Shown one piece after another: positions 6,201 through 41,302 of a stretch of DNA of 64,000 nucleotides. The first letter of the stretch is position 1, and every line of letters begins with the position of its first letter. The translations under genes and the position numbers were made by a program. Source of the stretch: Photobacterium angustum (GTDB lineage Bacteria > Pseudomonadota > Gammaproteobacteria > Enterobacterales > Vibrionaceae); NCBI RefSeq assembly GCF_002954615.1, contig NZ_MSCJ01000001.1, forward strand, positions 1,798,001 to 1,862,000, read 5' to 3'. The notes below the pieces were generated by a model. That model searched no databases and was not told where the DNA came from. It worked only from the letters and a program-made list of their open reading frames with translations.

Positions 6201-9200
6201 ATGCAAGCCTTACCGTTTCAGTCAAAGATGGTCTTGCCAATGTCATACTCGATAATAATGCCAAGACGATTGAAAGTATGATCACAGCAGGAAGCTCTAC
6301 CTACAAGGGTGAGTTTACTGTACAAGCTGGAGCAGATAATCCTGATCCAAGTAGCCTAACATTTAATTCCAAGACAATAACGGCGCTTGAAGCACTAAAT
6401 TTATATTCTGGTATCTCAACATCATCGCTTAGTTATACCGTCAGCTCCGATGGTAAAACAATCACAGCCAAAGCGGGTGGCGACACTATTTTTACCTTGA
6501 GTTTATCGGCAACCGCCTCAGGCGATAACGCGACGGGTACTGTCACCCTTGTACAACACTTCCCTCTCAATCAACAAGGTTTATCTGATGCTATCACCCT
6601 ACCTCTGTTTATTGATGCAATTGACAGTGATGGGACTGCTATCCCGACAGGGAAATTTGATTGGGTTATCGAAGACGGTGCGAATCCAGTATTAGCAACA
6701 TCTGAGCAATTAGAATTTAAAGAAACCGATCTATCTAATCCGTCAAATCAACCTAATCAACCATTGCAACAAACAGGCACGATCACCGTCACCATTGGCA
6801 GTGATGGTTTAAATGGCACCACAGAGCAAAGTCCGCTGTATTTTGATTTAAGCCAACTACCAACCGGTTTAACCAGCGGTGGAAAAGCGATCTCTTATGT
6901 GATCTCTGCTGATAATCAAACCATTGAAGCGAGGACAAGCTCAGGTAAAGTCTTTGAAATAAGCTTATCTGCTCGCCCAGATGCAGAAGCAAATTCAACC
7001 GTTGACTATGTTTTTATCCTTCATCAAGCACTGGATCAAACCAACGCAAATGATGAATTAACTATCTCTATTCCGGTCTTTATTAAAGATAACGACGGAG
7101 ATATTAACCAAACTGCTATCGATGTTGTCATTGTTGATGGTAATGCCCCTGTTATTAATACAACGTCAATAGAAATATCAGAAACGCCGATGAGTGCTTC
7201 ATCACCAGCAGGTAGTTCAAATCAAGCAGACGCCACAATCACAGTAACCGCAGGGCAAGATCCTATCGTCGATTTAAACCTTGTTTTATCTGGTACGGTA
7301 AAAAGTAGTGATGGCAATAACATCACCTACCAAGGTCAAACATTAACTTGGCAATTTGATGGCAGTAACACCTATAACGCATCATTGCCTAATGGCACAG
7401 TGATCTTTTCTGTCCATTTATCAGATATTGGTGCAGTTCCATCGGGTAGTGCAGCAAATGCAACAATTACAGTGACGCTCAATGAGTCTATCGACCATAC
7501 CAATGGCAACGATACCGAACTTAATTTATTACTGCCCGTTGAAGCGAAAGACAGTGATGGCAGCTCGAGCACATCAAACGTAACGGTGAGTTTTTTAGAT
7601 GGCTTAGTGCCTAGCATTACCGCCAACAGTAACCTTAACGTTCACGAAAATGACTTGCTGGATGATAATTTAGCCGCTGATGCATCAACCACGTCAGCAC
7701 CAACACTCAGCTTTAACCAAAGTAGTGATGAGCTTGCTTCAGTACATCTAGATACTGCGCAGTTTAATAGTCAAAACTATACCAGTGGTGGTGAAAACAT
7801 CACACTTAGCGCAGCAGATGCGAACGGTTGGTATAACGCAACGGCAAACGGTAATAATATTTTCCGTATTAAAGTCAATCTAGATGGTACCGTGCAATTT
7901 GAGCTTTTCGAAGCGATTGACCGCCCGTCATCATCAAGTCAAGGTGTGCTTAATTTAGAGTTTGGCGCCATTGCCACAGACGTAGATGGTGATATGTCAG
8001 CCACCACTCCTTTTGAAGTGGCAGTTACTGACGATATCCCTGTTGCAGGTCCTGATGAACAACTTGCTGTTGTTGAAGGTGTTGATAAGACACTACGCCT
8101 ATTATCTAGAGGCGTTACTGGTGCTGATGGTGGTGAGGTCGTCAGTATCAACTATCGTGGCAAAGAATATCCAGCAGACGGTAACCCAATTGATTTAATT
8201 AATACTCAAACGGTTCCACACACTAAATATGGCACTATCTCTGTTAATGCAGATGGCACAGTCATCATTAAGACGATTGCCAGTGAGGAAAGTAGTGGCG
8301 AGATCAGTGATGATTTCAGCTACACCGTCAAAGACAGCGATGGTGACACTGCGGTAAGAACCAAGAAACTATCTTTTGCAGATGATCCTGGGCGTATTGA
8401 AGTTAATGCGGAACAGATCCTTGAAGACAGCATGAGTAACCCACTCACTATTCAAGTATTCCTTGGTGATATTGACCAGAATGAATCGCTTAGCACTATC
8501 ACAATTAGTGAAAGCTCATTAGCGGGTGGACAGCTGTTTTTAAATGGCACATTACTAACAGCAACAAATGGCGTAATTACCCTTAGCGACTTTATTAGTG
8601 AAGGTGATTTTTATAAGCCAAATGGCGCCCTCACTTACCAGCCAGCATCAAATACTGCGGTTAATCAACAAGATACAGTTGTGCTTAAAATAACAGCGAC
8701 GATATCAACGAATAACCAAGATAAAACACTGACCAAAGATCTCACTATCAAGGTGCTACCTGATGCTGATGCCGCAATTTGGGACGAGACTAAAGATTAC
8801 GAATACACTGCTGTTGAAGATGATAGTAATGGCATTCAACTAAATGTTGCGGCGAATCTACAAGACACCGATGGTTCAGAAACCCTTAAATACCGTATTT
8901 CAGGGATCCCAGACGGCATTACACTCAAACTGGGTAACACCATAATTAGCGACGGTAAAATCATTAACGCTGATCAAATTAATGATGTGAAGATATTTTC
9001 TGATAAACACTCAGCAGGCATATTTACCTTTACCATTACTGCGCTCAGCACAGAAAAAGGTAATAAGTTCCTTGATAAAAGTACCGACCGAACAGAGGAA
9101 TCGCAACGTCTTATCACAGTAAATATTACTCCTGAAGCAGATGCGCCAAAACTCTCGGTTAAAAATCTTAAAGGTCATGAAGATCAGCCTATTGATCTAA

Positions 9201-37680: not shown

Positions 37681-38346
37681 ATGTATACATTTAAGCAGAC
37701 AAAAAAGCTGTTTATAAGTGCGATCATCCCTTTAAGTTTAGGGCTAGTATCGTATGTCCATGCAGAGCCATTAACCTCAGAGGATTATGCCAAAGCCAAA
37801 AGCCTTGATGGCAATAATAGCCGTAGCCTACACCCAGTAACATCAAGAGTGATCAAAGTTTCAAAACATCGCTCCAATCTCATGACTCACGGTAGTAAGT
37901 GGATAAATGTTTATCGCTATCATTACCCAACCGACACTACAGAACGTTTAGTTTATGATGTCGTCAATGAGAAAGTCATTGAATCAAAACAATTCAAAAA
38001 CATTCAATTTTCTGCTACTCGTGATGAAATCGCTTATGCAAAGCATCTTCTCGTGCATGATCCTGACTTTATGGAACAATTAGCGACTGAATATTACGAC
38101 CGATATCATCATCCACTACCCGCTCAAGATCCTTTATCTAACCTCAATATAAAAGCCATTGTGTTAACGACCGACAACACTCACAGCCTGCCTGTCTATC
38201 CGGAAACTAAAAACTGCGGATTACATCGCTGCGTGTACTTTTTCTTGGCCTCATTAGAGGCACCTTATGAATATGTAACATTAGAAACCAAAGCGATCGT
38301 CAATTTATCTAAACAAACCATTACCCCTTTTAGTCACAATCGCTAG
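37681..38346 (+). CDS. Secreted protein resembling copper amine oxidase N2/N3 domains
   Basis: A 221-residue protein with a signal peptide ending SYVHA-EP. I do not recognise a named family, but the region after the signal resembles the small N-terminal N2 and N3 domains of copper amine oxidases: PLTSEDYAKAKSL, then a beta-rich segment ending with LVYDVVNEKVIES, then a second segment beginning ATRDEIAYAKHLL and ending with AIVNLSKQTITPF. In canonical enzymes these domains lie directly before the catalytic domain in one chain. Here the two following genes encode catalytic-domain-like proteins, which supports the reading. Two Cys (CGLHRC) may form a disulfide. AGGAAA precedes the ATG. The similarity is judged by eye. 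Confidence 0.55.
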   Translation: MYTFKQTKKLFISAIIPLSLGLVSYVHAEPLTSEDYAKAKSLDGNNSRSLHPVTSRVIKVSKHRSNLMTHGSKWINVYRYHYPTDTTERLVYDVVNEKVIESKQFKNIQFSATRDEIAYAKHLLVHDPDFMEQLATEYYDRYHHPLPAQDPLSNLNIKAIVLTTDNTHSLPVYPETKNCGLHRCVYFFLASLEAPYEYVTLETKAIVNLSKQTITPFSHNR

Positions 38347-38422
38347 GTAAGTGAGCACGTAGATCATCATTAGTACCTGATGATTATTCTCATCTCTATA
38401 CAATGACTTAGGTGGAAGAGTG

Positions 38423-39571
38423 ATGAAAGACTGTAAACTAATTTATGCACTACTTATGCTGTTAGGTTTATCCGCGAGTATTTCCGTACATGCGGTAACA
38501 ACATCAGAAAAGTATCAATGTCCTACTCAGCAACAATATGAATACCAATTTGAGTCAGGTAATCTCTGGCAGTTTTGTTGGCAATGGGACAGTCGTTTTG
38601 GTATCAGCCTACACGATGTTGCATTCAAAACCGTAAGAGAGCGACTTAATACCTATATCGCTTCATCAATTGCTCTCAATCAAATCGAGTTAGTCGATGC
38701 ACAAAACACCAGTAATACTCTTAAAATTAACCAATTAGATAAATCACAATCAATATTAAGTGGTAACTGTCTAAACGGAACATTGCTATCTGATAGTGAA
38801 AATAACCCACTATTATGTATTAAGCCTGCAACATCTGATTATGCCATGCATTATGATGACGAATCTCGCCGTAAAAACTCTGTCGATATACTTAGCCTTG
38901 TCACCGTGAATAACAACCAATTTATTTCCCGCTTACGTTTACACGATGACGGTAGCTTTACTCCTTCAGCGAGCCTCGTTACTGATGACAGCAACAATAC
39001 TCACTACATCGTCAATTACTTCTGGCGTTTAGATTTAGACATAGGTGCAACCGCCACTAACGATCATGTCGAAGAGTTTCGTACCCATATTCGAAAAGGT
39101 CGAAATAAACGTGAAATCAGAACCAACACAGTTCTACAACCTGCTGAATTTAAAAAACAATATGATCGTAAAAAGATGAAAAGCTGGCGTATTTACGATG
39201 GGCAAATTACTAATCAATACAATATGCCTTCGTCTTATCACATTTTCCCATTAAGCCATGCTGCGATTGAACGTGATGCACAACGTCCGTGGACTGAATC
39301 TGACGTTTACTTCACGAATTACCACCCTTGTGAGCATAAAGCGATCATAAATAATGAAACTGATTGTGCTGAGAATGTGGTTCAAATGGTTGATCAAGAA
39401 ACGATAACTGATGTTGTAGCGTGGATTAAATTAACAGCACATTATATTCCGCCTTACACCAGTAGTGACGATCTCGCGCTGCTATGGCAAGAGTTTACTG
39501 TTTATCCTCGAGATGTCTTTAGCAAAAACCCTAATGTTCCCGATCCAGAATATCCAACTCCCCTTGACTAG
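38423..39571 (+). CDS. Secreted copper amine oxidase catalytic-domain homologue, active site degenerate
   Basis: A 382-residue protein with a signal peptide ending SVHA-VTTSE. It is a paralogue of the next gene: both have the order WQFCWQWD / GNCLNG / LLCIKPA / NYFWRLDLD / PCEHK / VVAWIKLTAHYIPP, which tracks the catalytic domain of copper amine oxidases. The active site has gone: the His-x-His copper motif reads Y195-I-V197, the cofactor Tyr position reads Asn in VNNNQF, and no catalytic Asp is evident. Six Cys align with those of its paralogue. I used the ATG at 38423 rather than the in-frame GTG at 38420. A short stem (38363-38384) separates it from the preceding gene. It could be a regulatory or structural partner. 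Confidence 0.6.
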   Translation: MKDCKLIYALLMLLGLSASISVHAVTTSEKYQCPTQQQYEYQFESGNLWQFCWQWDSRFGISLHDVAFKTVRERLNTYIASSIALNQIELVDAQNTSNTLKINQLDKSQSILSGNCLNGTLLSDSENNPLLCIKPATSDYAMHYDDESRRKNSVDILSLVTVNNNQFISRLRLHDDGSFTPSASLVTDDSNNTHYIVNYFWRLDLDIGATATNDHVEEFRTHIRKGRNKREIRTNTVLQPAEFKKQYDRKKMKSWRIYDGQITNQYNMPSSYHIFPLSHAAIERDAQRPWTESDVYFTNYHPCEHKAIINNETDCAENVVQMVDQETITDVVAWIKLTAHYIPPYTSSDDLALLWQEFTVYPRDVFSKNPNVPDPEYPTPLD

Positions 39572-39609
39572 AACATGAAATCAATCGACTTAAATGTAGA
39601 GAGGATAAT

Positions 39610-40776
39610 ATGTTTACAGTAAAAAGATGGTGGAAAATATACTTGGCTCTTGCATGTTTTTACTCATCTAGCGTATTTGCATGTAGCCCAGATGACAGTA
39701 ACTACGTTCAAGAGAACTTCAGCAATGGTGCAAAATGGTCAATGTGTTGGGAGTTCGATAGTGATGAAGGTATCTACCTTACAGATATTACTTATACACC
39801 ACCTAATAGCACCACGCCTTTTAGAGTAATAAATGAAGTTATACTTTCTCAAATTTTTGTGCCTTATGATAATGGTAAAGATCGCTTTCATGATGTAACC
39901 GACTACGACTTTGGCGGTAGCATGATTGAAATTAAACCACAAAACTGCAAAAACGGGTTCATTGAACGTATAGACACCCTTTATGAAGATAACCTTCCTA
40001 GTCTATGTATTAAAACAGCTAGCGATACCACATTACATGATCTAACGGGTGCGCCTGCAAGCAGTGAGTACCTACAACTTTTTTCTTCTCACCAAGTCGG
40101 CGCCTATAATTACATTCCTGATTGGCGTTTCTATAGTAATGGCATGATTGAATTTGCAGTAGGTGCAACAGGTGCATTGCAAACTACCGTCAACATAAAC
40201 AATAACCCTGCAAGAGAAGATCGTTATCGTAAATTAGGATGGAAAATCGGACACAATACTGTGGGTGTATCCCATATCCATAATTACTTTTGGCGTATCG
40301 ATTTCGCCGTAGGTGATCAGGAAAACGATGATGTTTTTAAAGTGCTACGTTATACAAAAGACGGGAATAAAACGGTAGAAAATGCGACCCAGATAACCAA
40401 AGAAGGACGTTTTAATCATAAAGAAAGCAATTTTAAAACGTGGTTTGTACAAGAAAATGTCAACTCCAATAAAGGCTACATTCTTCAGCCTGGGGATTCT
40501 GGTCACCGCTTTAAAGGCATCAAAAAAGAGAAATTCACCCGTAACGATCTTCACATCTCCCGTGATATTGCTTGTGAACGTTACGCCTCACATAACAAAA
40601 TGTGTAACGGTAAAAAACAACTTGCTGACTTTATTCAAGATAATAAATCTATAGAAAACAGAGACTTTGTTGTTTGGTACAACTTAACCTTGCACCACAT
40701 TCCACGCGGTGAAGAATCACCTGAAATGGATATACACCGCAATAGCTTTAAGCTTGTGCCTAGAAATTTATATTGA
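39610..40776 (+). CDS. Compact secreted copper amine oxidase-like protein with conserved active-site residues
   Basis: A 388-residue protein with a signal peptide ending SVFA-CSPDD. It parallels the catalytic domain of copper amine oxidases: GIYLTDITY, then ILSQIFVPY, then DYDFGGS with D100 at the catalytic-base position, a Cys pair (NCKNG and SLCIK) where the family disulfide lies, VGAYNYIPDW with Y166 at the topaquinone position, DWRFYSNGMIEF, H222-I-H224 before NYFWRID at the copper site, GYILQPGDSGH with H299 as third copper ligand, and FVVWYNLTLHHIP near the end. The topaquinone consensus Asn-Tyr-Asp/Glu is Ala-Tyr-Asn here. It is shorter than usual between the HxH and the third His. GAGAGG precedes the ATG. 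Amine oxidase activity is plausible, not shown. Confidence 0.65.
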   Translation: MFTVKRWWKIYLALACFYSSSVFACSPDDSNYVQENFSNGAKWSMCWEFDSDEGIYLTDITYTPPNSTTPFRVINEVILSQIFVPYDNGKDRFHDVTDYDFGGSMIEIKPQNCKNGFIERIDTLYEDNLPSLCIKTASDTTLHDLTGAPASSEYLQLFSSHQVGAYNYIPDWRFYSNGMIEFAVGATGALQTTVNINNNPAREDRYRKLGWKIGHNTVGVSHIHNYFWRIDFAVGDQENDDVFKVLRYTKDGNKTVENATQITKEGRFNHKESNFKTWFVQENVNSNKGYILQPGDSGHRFKGIKKEKFTRNDLHISRDIACERYASHNKMCNGKKQLADFIQDNKSIENRDFVVWYNLTLHHIPRGEESPEMDIHRNSFKLVPRNLY

Positions 40777-40797
40777 GGATAGGTTTTATCTAAACGT

Positions 40798-41053
40798 AAA
40801 AAAGCCGCTAACTTTCGCTAGCGGCTTTCTTTTATATGGCGGAGCAGTTCTGGGGATTTGAGGATTTGAACCCTTCTAATACAAATATCAGATTAATTTT
40901 AAAATATAATCATTCTTCCAGATGCAAAAAAGCCGCTGACTTTCGCTAGTAGCTTTCTTTAATATGGTGGAGCAGTTCTGGGTATTTGAGGATTTGAACC
41001 CTTCTAATATAAATATCAGATTAATTTTAAAATATAATTATTCTTCCAGATGC
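40798..41053 (-). repeat. Two tandem 128-bp repeats carrying a terminator stem and a tRNA 3'-end remnant
   Basis: Units at 40798-40925 and 40926-41053 are nearly identical. Each has an AAAAAAGCCGC...CTTT hairpin, then on the - strand a piece ending CTCCGCCA preceded by a GGGTTCAAATCC-like T-arm, then an AT-rich tail. A third hairpin at 41057-41086 leads into the intact tRNA-Ser(UGA), whose own 3' end is CTCCGCCA. The arrangement looks like partial duplications of the tRNA 3' end and its terminator, comparable in form to the repeats downstream of E. coli tyrT. Confidence 0.85.
40801..40828. terminator. Bidirectional terminator after the amine-oxidase-like cluster
   Basis: AAAGCCGCTA (40801-40810) pairs with TAGCGGCTTT (40819-40828) with an 8-base loop; a T-run follows on + and an A-run precedes it. 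It ends the secreted-protein cluster on + and is the last of three serial hairpins downstream of the tRNAs on -. Confidence 0.85.
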
Positions 41054-41094: not shown

Positions 41095-41185
41095 TGGCGG
41101 AGAGATAGGGATTTGAACCCTAGATACGCTATAAACGTATGCCGGTTTTCAAGACCGGTGCTTTCAACCACTCAGCCATCTCTCC
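41095..41185 (-). tRNA. tRNA-Ser (anticodon UGA)
   Basis: On the - strand, the 7-bp acceptor stem GGAGAGA pairs with TCTCTCC, followed by discriminator G and an encoded CCA. The anticodon loop reads CTTGAAA in GGTCTTGAAAACC. A long variable arm and the T-loop GGTTCAAATCC are as expected for serine tRNA. Length is 91 nt with CCA. It is the second of two serine tRNAs in one transcript. Confidence 0.95.
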
Positions 41186-41214: not shown

Positions 41215-41302
41215 TGGCGGTGAGGGAGGGATTCGAACCCTCGATACGTTGCCGTATACACACTTTCCAGGCGTGCTCCTTCAGCCACTCGGACACCTCA
41301 CC
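41215..41302 (-). tRNA. tRNA-Ser (anticodon GGA)
   Basis: On the - strand the acceptor GGTGAGG pairs with CCTCACC, followed by G and an encoded CCA. The anticodon arm is CACGCCTGGAAAGTGTG, giving anticodon GGA, with a long class II variable arm and T-loop GGTTCGAATCC. Length is 88 nt with CCA. It lies 29 bp upstream of tRNA-Ser(UGA) and is probably co-transcribed with it. Confidence 0.95.

Follow-up and report, generated by a model that had tools for sequence, protein, structure and literature searches.

The window analysed here, a stretch of 64,000 nucleotides, comes from the 4.9 Mb genome of Photobacterium angustum and carries three consecutive genes on its plus strand (open reading frames ORF1, ORF2 and ORF3, Table 1), separated by 73 and 38 bases. 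The gene upstream of ORF1 is presumably ynjF-like. An earlier note, made from the letters alone, had read the three genes as a copper amine oxidase (CuAO) divided among three secreted proteins, each with its own ribosome binding site and signal peptide. The position and size of the genes were confirmed. By eye, a purine-rich stretch resembling a Shine-Dalgarno sequence precedes each of them, and each product starts with a basic segment followed by a hydrophobic one and a signal-peptidase-like site (no predictor was used). The N2, N3 and catalytic domains of CuAO are not carried by one polypeptide here, each ORF having its own start and stop. For ORF2, its homologues point to the ATG at 38423 as the probable start. 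Homologues are 86% identical in P. leiognathi and 66% in P. kishitanii.

To compare the cassette with its relatives, one genome per species was scanned (84,980 species). This gave 365 stretches with relatives, the best 80 of which were analysed as loci; the counts out of 80 and the single-locus labels (L) used below refer to these. In each locus, we call N gene the relative of ORF1, middle gene that of ORF2 and catalytic gene that of ORF3.

Table 1. Features of the window and of related loci (L, locus; G, genome)
Feature	Locus	Position	Strand	Remarks
ORF1	window	37681..38346	+	221 aa, putatively secreted; separate subunit with predicted CuAO N2-N3 fold
ORF2	window	38420..39571	+	383 aa, putatively secreted; paralogue of the CuAO catalytic domain, active-site residues absent (predicted pseudoenzyme)
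ORF3	window	39610..40776	+	388 aa, putatively secreted; predicted compact CuAO catalytic subunit (D95, Y166, H222, H224, H363)
Terminator-like hairpin	window	40801..40828	+	3′ of ORF3; 10-pair stem, T-rich tail
tRNA-Ser genes	window	41095-41185 and 41215-41302	minus	adjoin 128-nt repeats
C-terminal ORF3 scrap	L113 (G127)	7381-7644		syntenic place next to ynjF-like gene
C-terminal ORF3 scrap	L114 (G115)	7730-7855		syntenic place next to ynjF-like gene
Lone catalytic gene	L028			same accession as L034
Lone catalytic gene	L035			same accession as L026, L056
Lone catalytic gene	L049			same accession as L021, L053
Lone catalytic gene	L057			same accession as L029
Lone catalytic gene	L064			same accession as L044
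Lone catalytic gene	L067			same accession as L048
Lone catalytic gene	L078			same accession as L047
Lone catalytic gene	L038, L042			full cassette found by genome searches, not by accession
Two-CxxCH gene	L048	8377-10474	same as cassette	3′ of cassette
Two-CxxCH gene	L023, L025, L027, L029, L034, L036, L041, L042		same as cassette	3′ of cassette
Two-CxxCH gene	L043, L045, L047, L051, L053, L055, L056		same as cassette	3′ of cassette

Domain content and active-site residues

ORF3 matches the CuAO catalytic-domain family PF01179 with 138.6 bits (curated cut-off 27), over positions 21-399 of the 407 of the profile. The catalytic Asp, the cofactor Tyr and the three copper His of CuAO align with D95, Y166, H222, H224 and H363. 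The earlier note had correctly picked Y166, H222 and H224, whereas its other two choices, D100 as the catalytic Asp and H299 as a copper His, had to be replaced. In an alignment with the pea enzyme, D95 pairs with Asp295 and H363 with His598 (chain numbering), which we take to be the catalytic Asp (D300 in literature numbering) and H603; D95 and H363 are kept in every ORF at the catalytic position, while column 299 varies (His in 59 of 84 catalytic ORFs). From the fold alignment, the five residues of ORF3 would cluster. As the note had proposed, the family disulfide pair is present (C113/C133); both columns are Cys in two of the four canonical CuAO sequences compared. Relative to these four, the ORF3 domain is shorter, 3-10 residues being missing at seven places. 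Around the cofactor Tyr it reads Ala-Tyr-Asn and departs from Asn-Tyr-Asp/Glu, the consensus for topaquinone (TPQ) formation.

ORF2 also belongs to PF01179 (36.8 bits against the same cut-off, E 2.8e-9); a sequence search of the PDB with ORF2 gave no match up to E 10. Its identity to ORF3 is about 20-24%. At the five sites where catalytic CuAOs hold D, Y, H, H and H, it reads K, N, Y, V and Y, so that copper His, cofactor Tyr and catalytic Asp are all absent. The second and third proteins are thus both catalytic-domain-like, as proposed, but ORF2, judged by these substitutions, is a CuAO paralogue deprived of active-site residues and not a second catalytic protein. It nevertheless seems to be held by selection, since its ratio of non-synonymous to synonymous substitution rates (dN/dS) was about 0.09 when compared with Photobacterium lucens, at dS 1.1, and 0.12 with P. 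kishitanii, at dS 2.8. The ratio against P. lucens was 0.05 for both ORF1 and ORF3. Four of six comparisons were estimable (not ORF1 and ORF3 against P. kishitanii), and with dS above 1 the values are rough. Homologues of ORF2 and ORF3 are already annotated 'copper amine oxidase', a homologue of ORF1 'hypothetical protein'.

No CuAO family of Pfam was matched by ORF1 itself, the curated scores of PF02727 (N2) and PF02728 (N3) not being reached. PF02727 was matched by 3 of 34 ORF1 relatives at E≤1 (best 0.0011), and the PF02728 profile found nothing in the own genome at E≤0.001. The best hit of ORF1 as a single sequence against the PDB, at E 0.66, was an unrelated protein; with an ORF1 profile, CuAO came top at E 0.083, followed by an ADP-ribosylation factor at 0.25. 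The question was settled by the structure model: compared with PDB structures, the predicted ORF1 fold is N2 followed by N3, in agreement with the earlier proposal that the first protein is N2/N3-like.

The same division of residues is found across the 80 loci. They contain 143 CuAO-type ORFs, 84 with all five residues and 59 without; 56 of the 59 are full length, the three short ones being fragments in L031 and L080. The ORFs were sorted by intactness, which makes it partly a matter of definition that catalytic genes are intact. The last CuAO-type ORF of each locus carries the full set of five residues; the middle ORF before it, where present, does not. All 56 full-length middle ORFs lack both histidines of the HxH motif, and D95, H222 and H224 are kept in none of them. 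The number of the five residues retained is zero in 36, one in 15 and two in 5. C46, C113 and C133 are Cys in 84/84 catalytic and 56/56 middle ORFs. Tyr at the TPQ position is kept in five middle genes (L029, L040, L044, L047, L048; Leucothrix and kin) though the HxH histidines and the Asp are gone.

The residue preceding Y166 in the 84 catalytic ORFs is Ala in 57, Ser in 11, Trp in 7, Glu in 5, Gln in 2, Asp in 1 and Lys in 1; the following one is Asn in 28, Ala in 15, Tyr in 9 and Glu in 7, with others in the remainder. Four canonical CuAOs all have Asn before the Tyr, and three of them Asp after it (not L112). In the PDB, structures of the N381A mutant of AGAO, the Arthrobacter globiformis enzyme, bear the titles holo form and catalytic intermediate (7wir, 7wis); Ala before the Tyr therefore does not forbid the cofactor.

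In a quick tree of 146 rows using all columns, the 57 middle rows (the 56 plus ORF2 of the window) lay on one side of a branch with a Shimodaira-Hasegawa-like approximate likelihood ratio (SH-aLRT) support of 98, with long-branch warnings. A more careful tree was built from 60 of the 142 non-canonical rows after removal of 29 active-site-region columns. Here 20 of 25 middle rows, including the three of Photobacterium, grouped together (97/100) and five Granulosicoccaceae rows stood apart; a single middle clade was not rejected by the approximately unbiased test (p-AU 0.474) and was seen in 24% of 200 bootstrap trees. The ORF2 of the window falls together with middle genes from other lineages. 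A single duplication at the origin of the middle genes is plausible from these trees, being favoured with all columns and left undecided without those of the active site.

Distribution and forms of the cassette

The order N-middle-catalytic occurs in 49 of the 80 loci, and an N gene in 69. The trio is present in Photobacterium, Thiothrix, Leucothrix, Granulosicoccus and others; by record title, three-gene loci are Gammaproteobacteria (L029 being titled Proteobacteria only), plus L031, from a Caldilineaceae metagenome-assembled genome. The L031 middle gene (964-2230) is spread over two overlapping ORFs (1/80), through a frameshift or an assembly error. An N-catalytic form without middle gene accounts for 15 loci. 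One of these, L091, was printed in the order catalytic-N since its catalytic ORF is over-extended upstream, giving a nested pair in different frames. This two-gene form occurs in Actinomycetota and Chloroflexota (Streptomyces, Rubrobacter, Herpetosiphon and kin, Anaerolineales and, at L039, Caldilineaceae) and also in Hydrocarboniphaga. Searching seven such genomes entirely gave a single match in six; one Streptomyces has a second, weaker match in a 537-codon frame. In none of the 80 loci did one ORF match the N profile as well as the catalytic one.

The remaining arrangements are a catalytic gene alone (9/80), two middle-catalytic pairs flanking one N gene (2/80), one N and one middle gene with two catalytic genes (2/80), and a middle-catalytic pair at a contig start (2/80). 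Second catalytic genes follow the first at L051 (10332-11861) and L055 (10302-11831), with one N2-N3 and one middle gene common to both; they are possibly interchangeable catalytic subunits. In all nine loci with a lone catalytic gene, the genome also has a full cassette (Table 1). The lone status is less sure for L042, whose ORF reaches the contig end, and for L038 and L064, where about 3 kb of upstream sequence is available.

Used alone against 369 genomes of the class, the N profile gave four matches in three genomes, the own one included, and all four adjoin a CuAO-type gene. Gene-to-gene distances in the 49 trio loci are correlated, with coefficients of 0.94 for N and middle, 0.89 for middle and catalytic and 0.89 for N and catalytic genes (0 of 1000 shuffles). 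Recurring as it does in distant bacteria, the trio looks like a stable multi-subunit enzyme form. Since one genome (G320) holds a canonical CuAO besides, the split form is not merely a substitute for it. A plasmid search returned 42 records, all below 60% identity; the best among the matches listed reaches 26.5%, and the annotated ones among the 20 listed are primary-amine oxidases.

Closer to the window, ORF3 is matched at E≤1e-5 in 9 of 247 genomes of the family, namely the own one, four others of the genus and four belonging to a second genus. In the latter four, the match sits in an open frame of 667 codons and so in a single-chain CuAO. ORF1 and ORF2 are each found in the same 3 of 52 genus genomes. 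Two further genus genomes (G127 and G115) keep only ORF3 residues 301-388 or 347-388, adjoining the ynjF-like gene (Table 1), and the neighbouring proteins of G127 are 94-98% identical. These scraps at a syntenic place indicate a secondary loss of the operon by deletion. The survey of Vibrionaceae suggested by the earlier note did not bear out a trait of that family: the cassette is rare in the genus, and the trio exists in other gammaproteobacterial groups.

A predicted enzyme of separate subunits

The proposed division of a CuAO into secreted N2/N3 and catalytic-domain proteins withstood sequence, profile, structure and comparative tests. We consider, with a probability of roughly 0.7, that the three genes encode one extracytoplasmic hetero-oligomeric CuAO made of separate subunits, only one of which is active. 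Computation shows the fold and homology of ORF1 and ORF3, the homology of ORF2, the presence or loss of active-site residues, the conserved gene order and the co-inheritance of the genes, while assembly, stoichiometry, TPQ formation, catalysis and substrate are inferred. ORF3 would be the catalytic subunit, with copper held by H222, H224 and H363, Y166 self-processed to TPQ and D95 acting as the proton-abstracting base. By the general chemistry of the CuAO family, it would oxidise a primary amine to the aldehyde and set free ammonia and hydrogen peroxide (H2O2). ORF2 most likely replaces the second subunit of the CuAO dimer, so that the resulting heterodimer would have one active site only. 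ORF1 would be the detached N2-N3 part and pack on the ORF2-ORF3 dimer as it does within canonical chains.

Several points weigh against this reading. The TPQ consensus is lost, Asn preceding Y166 in 0/84 and Asp or Glu following it in 7/84 catalytic ORFs. Since a two-gene form exists, not every member needs the pseudoenzyme. The operon is dispensable in Photobacterium, two relatives holding only the C-terminal scrap, and the distance correlations could also be expected of genes merely inherited together. Finally, the structure models are of the single chains ORF1 and ORF3, and the dimer geometry is conjectural.

The main alternative, which we consider unlikely, is that ORF3 works alone as an ordinary homodimer and that its secreted companions ORF1 and ORF2, not being structural subunits, act as chaperone, copper donor, substrate or surface adaptor. 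Separate signal peptides would permit separate fates, and loci without middle gene or with a catalytic gene alone fit such companions; the nine lone catalytic genes, however, all sit in genomes with the full cassette. Moreover, the ORF1 fold is one that canonical CuAOs bear on the same chain, and middle proteins that keep catalytic-domain homology and the three cysteines without an active site suit a dimer partner. The changed consensus might also mean that ORF3 is a copper protein without TPQ which, instead of being an amine oxidase, is derived from the CuAO fold for metal binding or signalling. This appears improbable: the five residues occur together in every catalytic-position ORF (Gammaproteobacteria, Chloroflexota, Actinomycetota), the middle paralogues lost these same residues, and the N381A structures carry the titles cited above. 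Least credible of all is that ORF1 and ORF2 are decaying remnants of a canonical CuAO broken up in this lineage, as the scraps in two relatives and the dead ORF2 might suggest, for order and partition are identical in many distant lineages, the estimable dN/dS values, rough as they are, lie at 0.05-0.12, and ORF2 groups with middle genes from elsewhere.

Compared with known systems, the hetero-oligomeric enzyme proposed here shares with canonical bacterial CuAOs (AGAO, and ECAO/TynA of Escherichia coli; PF02727-PF02728-PF01179) the catalytic domain with its aligned Asp, Tyr and three His in ORF3, and the N2-N3 fold in the same order in ORF1. It differs from these single chains of about 620-720 residues (PDB chains matched) by its partition into three secreted proteins, its shorter catalytic domain, its altered TPQ consensus and the accompanying paralogue without active site. 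Secreted or surface CuAOs, such as Pichia pastoris lysyl oxidase (1n9e, 1rky) and vascular adhesion protein 1 (1us1), are single-chain homodimers and are not known to have a separate N2-N3 protein or a pseudoenzyme subunit. To our knowledge, CuAOs are described as single-chain homodimers, and no split, heteromeric or pseudoenzyme-bearing CuAO was found in the titles and abstract openings of open-licence papers. CuAOs are textbook quinoenzymes, and a natural split makes the roles of the N2-N3 part and of the second subunit testable, since each can be omitted, swapped or titrated without cutting a protein. That a dead partner has been maintained in many lineages suggests that a dimer can do with one active site, the other subunit having a structural or regulatory function. 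It also bears on half-site behaviour, an open question in the CuAO family.

Extensions, neighbouring genes and minor features

In relatives, the catalytic protein is often extended: 12 of 84 have at most 420 residues, 44 have 421-600 and 28 are longer (ORF starts being set mechanically). Three that were tested (L055, L062, L047) carry Big_9, He_PIG or cadherin-like domains. A simple pattern finds a terminal hydrophobic stretch with basic residues in 22 of 84, and some of these tails seem to resemble GlyGly-CTERM. Photobacterium ORF3 has no such extension or tail.

A protein with two CxxCH motifs is encoded 3′ of the cassette in at least 16 of the 80 loci, none of them Photobacterium (Table 1); it was seen in 16 of 18 loci viewed closely, some loci having short downstream sequence. 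The one tested with Pfam, from L048, is a CCP_MauG protein (E 5.9e-45). A small protein gene often lies between the cassette and this gene; the L048 copy matches YtkA below cut-off (E 0.00088), and four such proteins gave no match in NCBIfam. These neighbours recall the di-haem enzymes MauG and MbnH, which have partners in the tryptophan tryptophylquinone (TTQ) and MbnP systems. For four of the two-CxxCH proteins, the scores against TIGR03791 and TIGR04039 fall far short of the curated cut-offs, which makes them relatives and not members; the window operon is not followed by such a gene. As a guess, these proteins and the small ones may serve H2O2 removal or help with cofactor or copper.

At even odds, the whole may be a second CuAO architecture present in several phyla, with a separate N2-N3 protein and, in Gammaproteobacteria, a heterodimer that pairs a working catalytic subunit with a conserved dead one. 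Several interchangeable catalytic subunits, some with immunoglobulin- or cadherin-type tails, would in some genomes be served by common N2-N3 and dead subunits. Thiotrichales relatives would add the MauG-like di-haem protein and the small YtkA-like protein, to handle H2O2, deliver copper or mature the cofactor at the cell surface.

Granulosicoccaceae cassette loci have conserved neighbours, including a RecQ-like protein (by eye) and others. Terminator-like hairpins occur in the region at 5 sites against 2.9 in shuffles, so that the hairpin after ORF3 is weak evidence by itself; a promoter scan was of no help, with 9 sites against 15.9. This hairpin is contained in the first of two tandem 128-nt copies, 91% identical (40789-41044). 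The repeat holds a stretch that, by eye, is similar to the 3′ portion of the tRNA-Ser genes next to it, and the copies are perhaps repeated partial tRNA ends.
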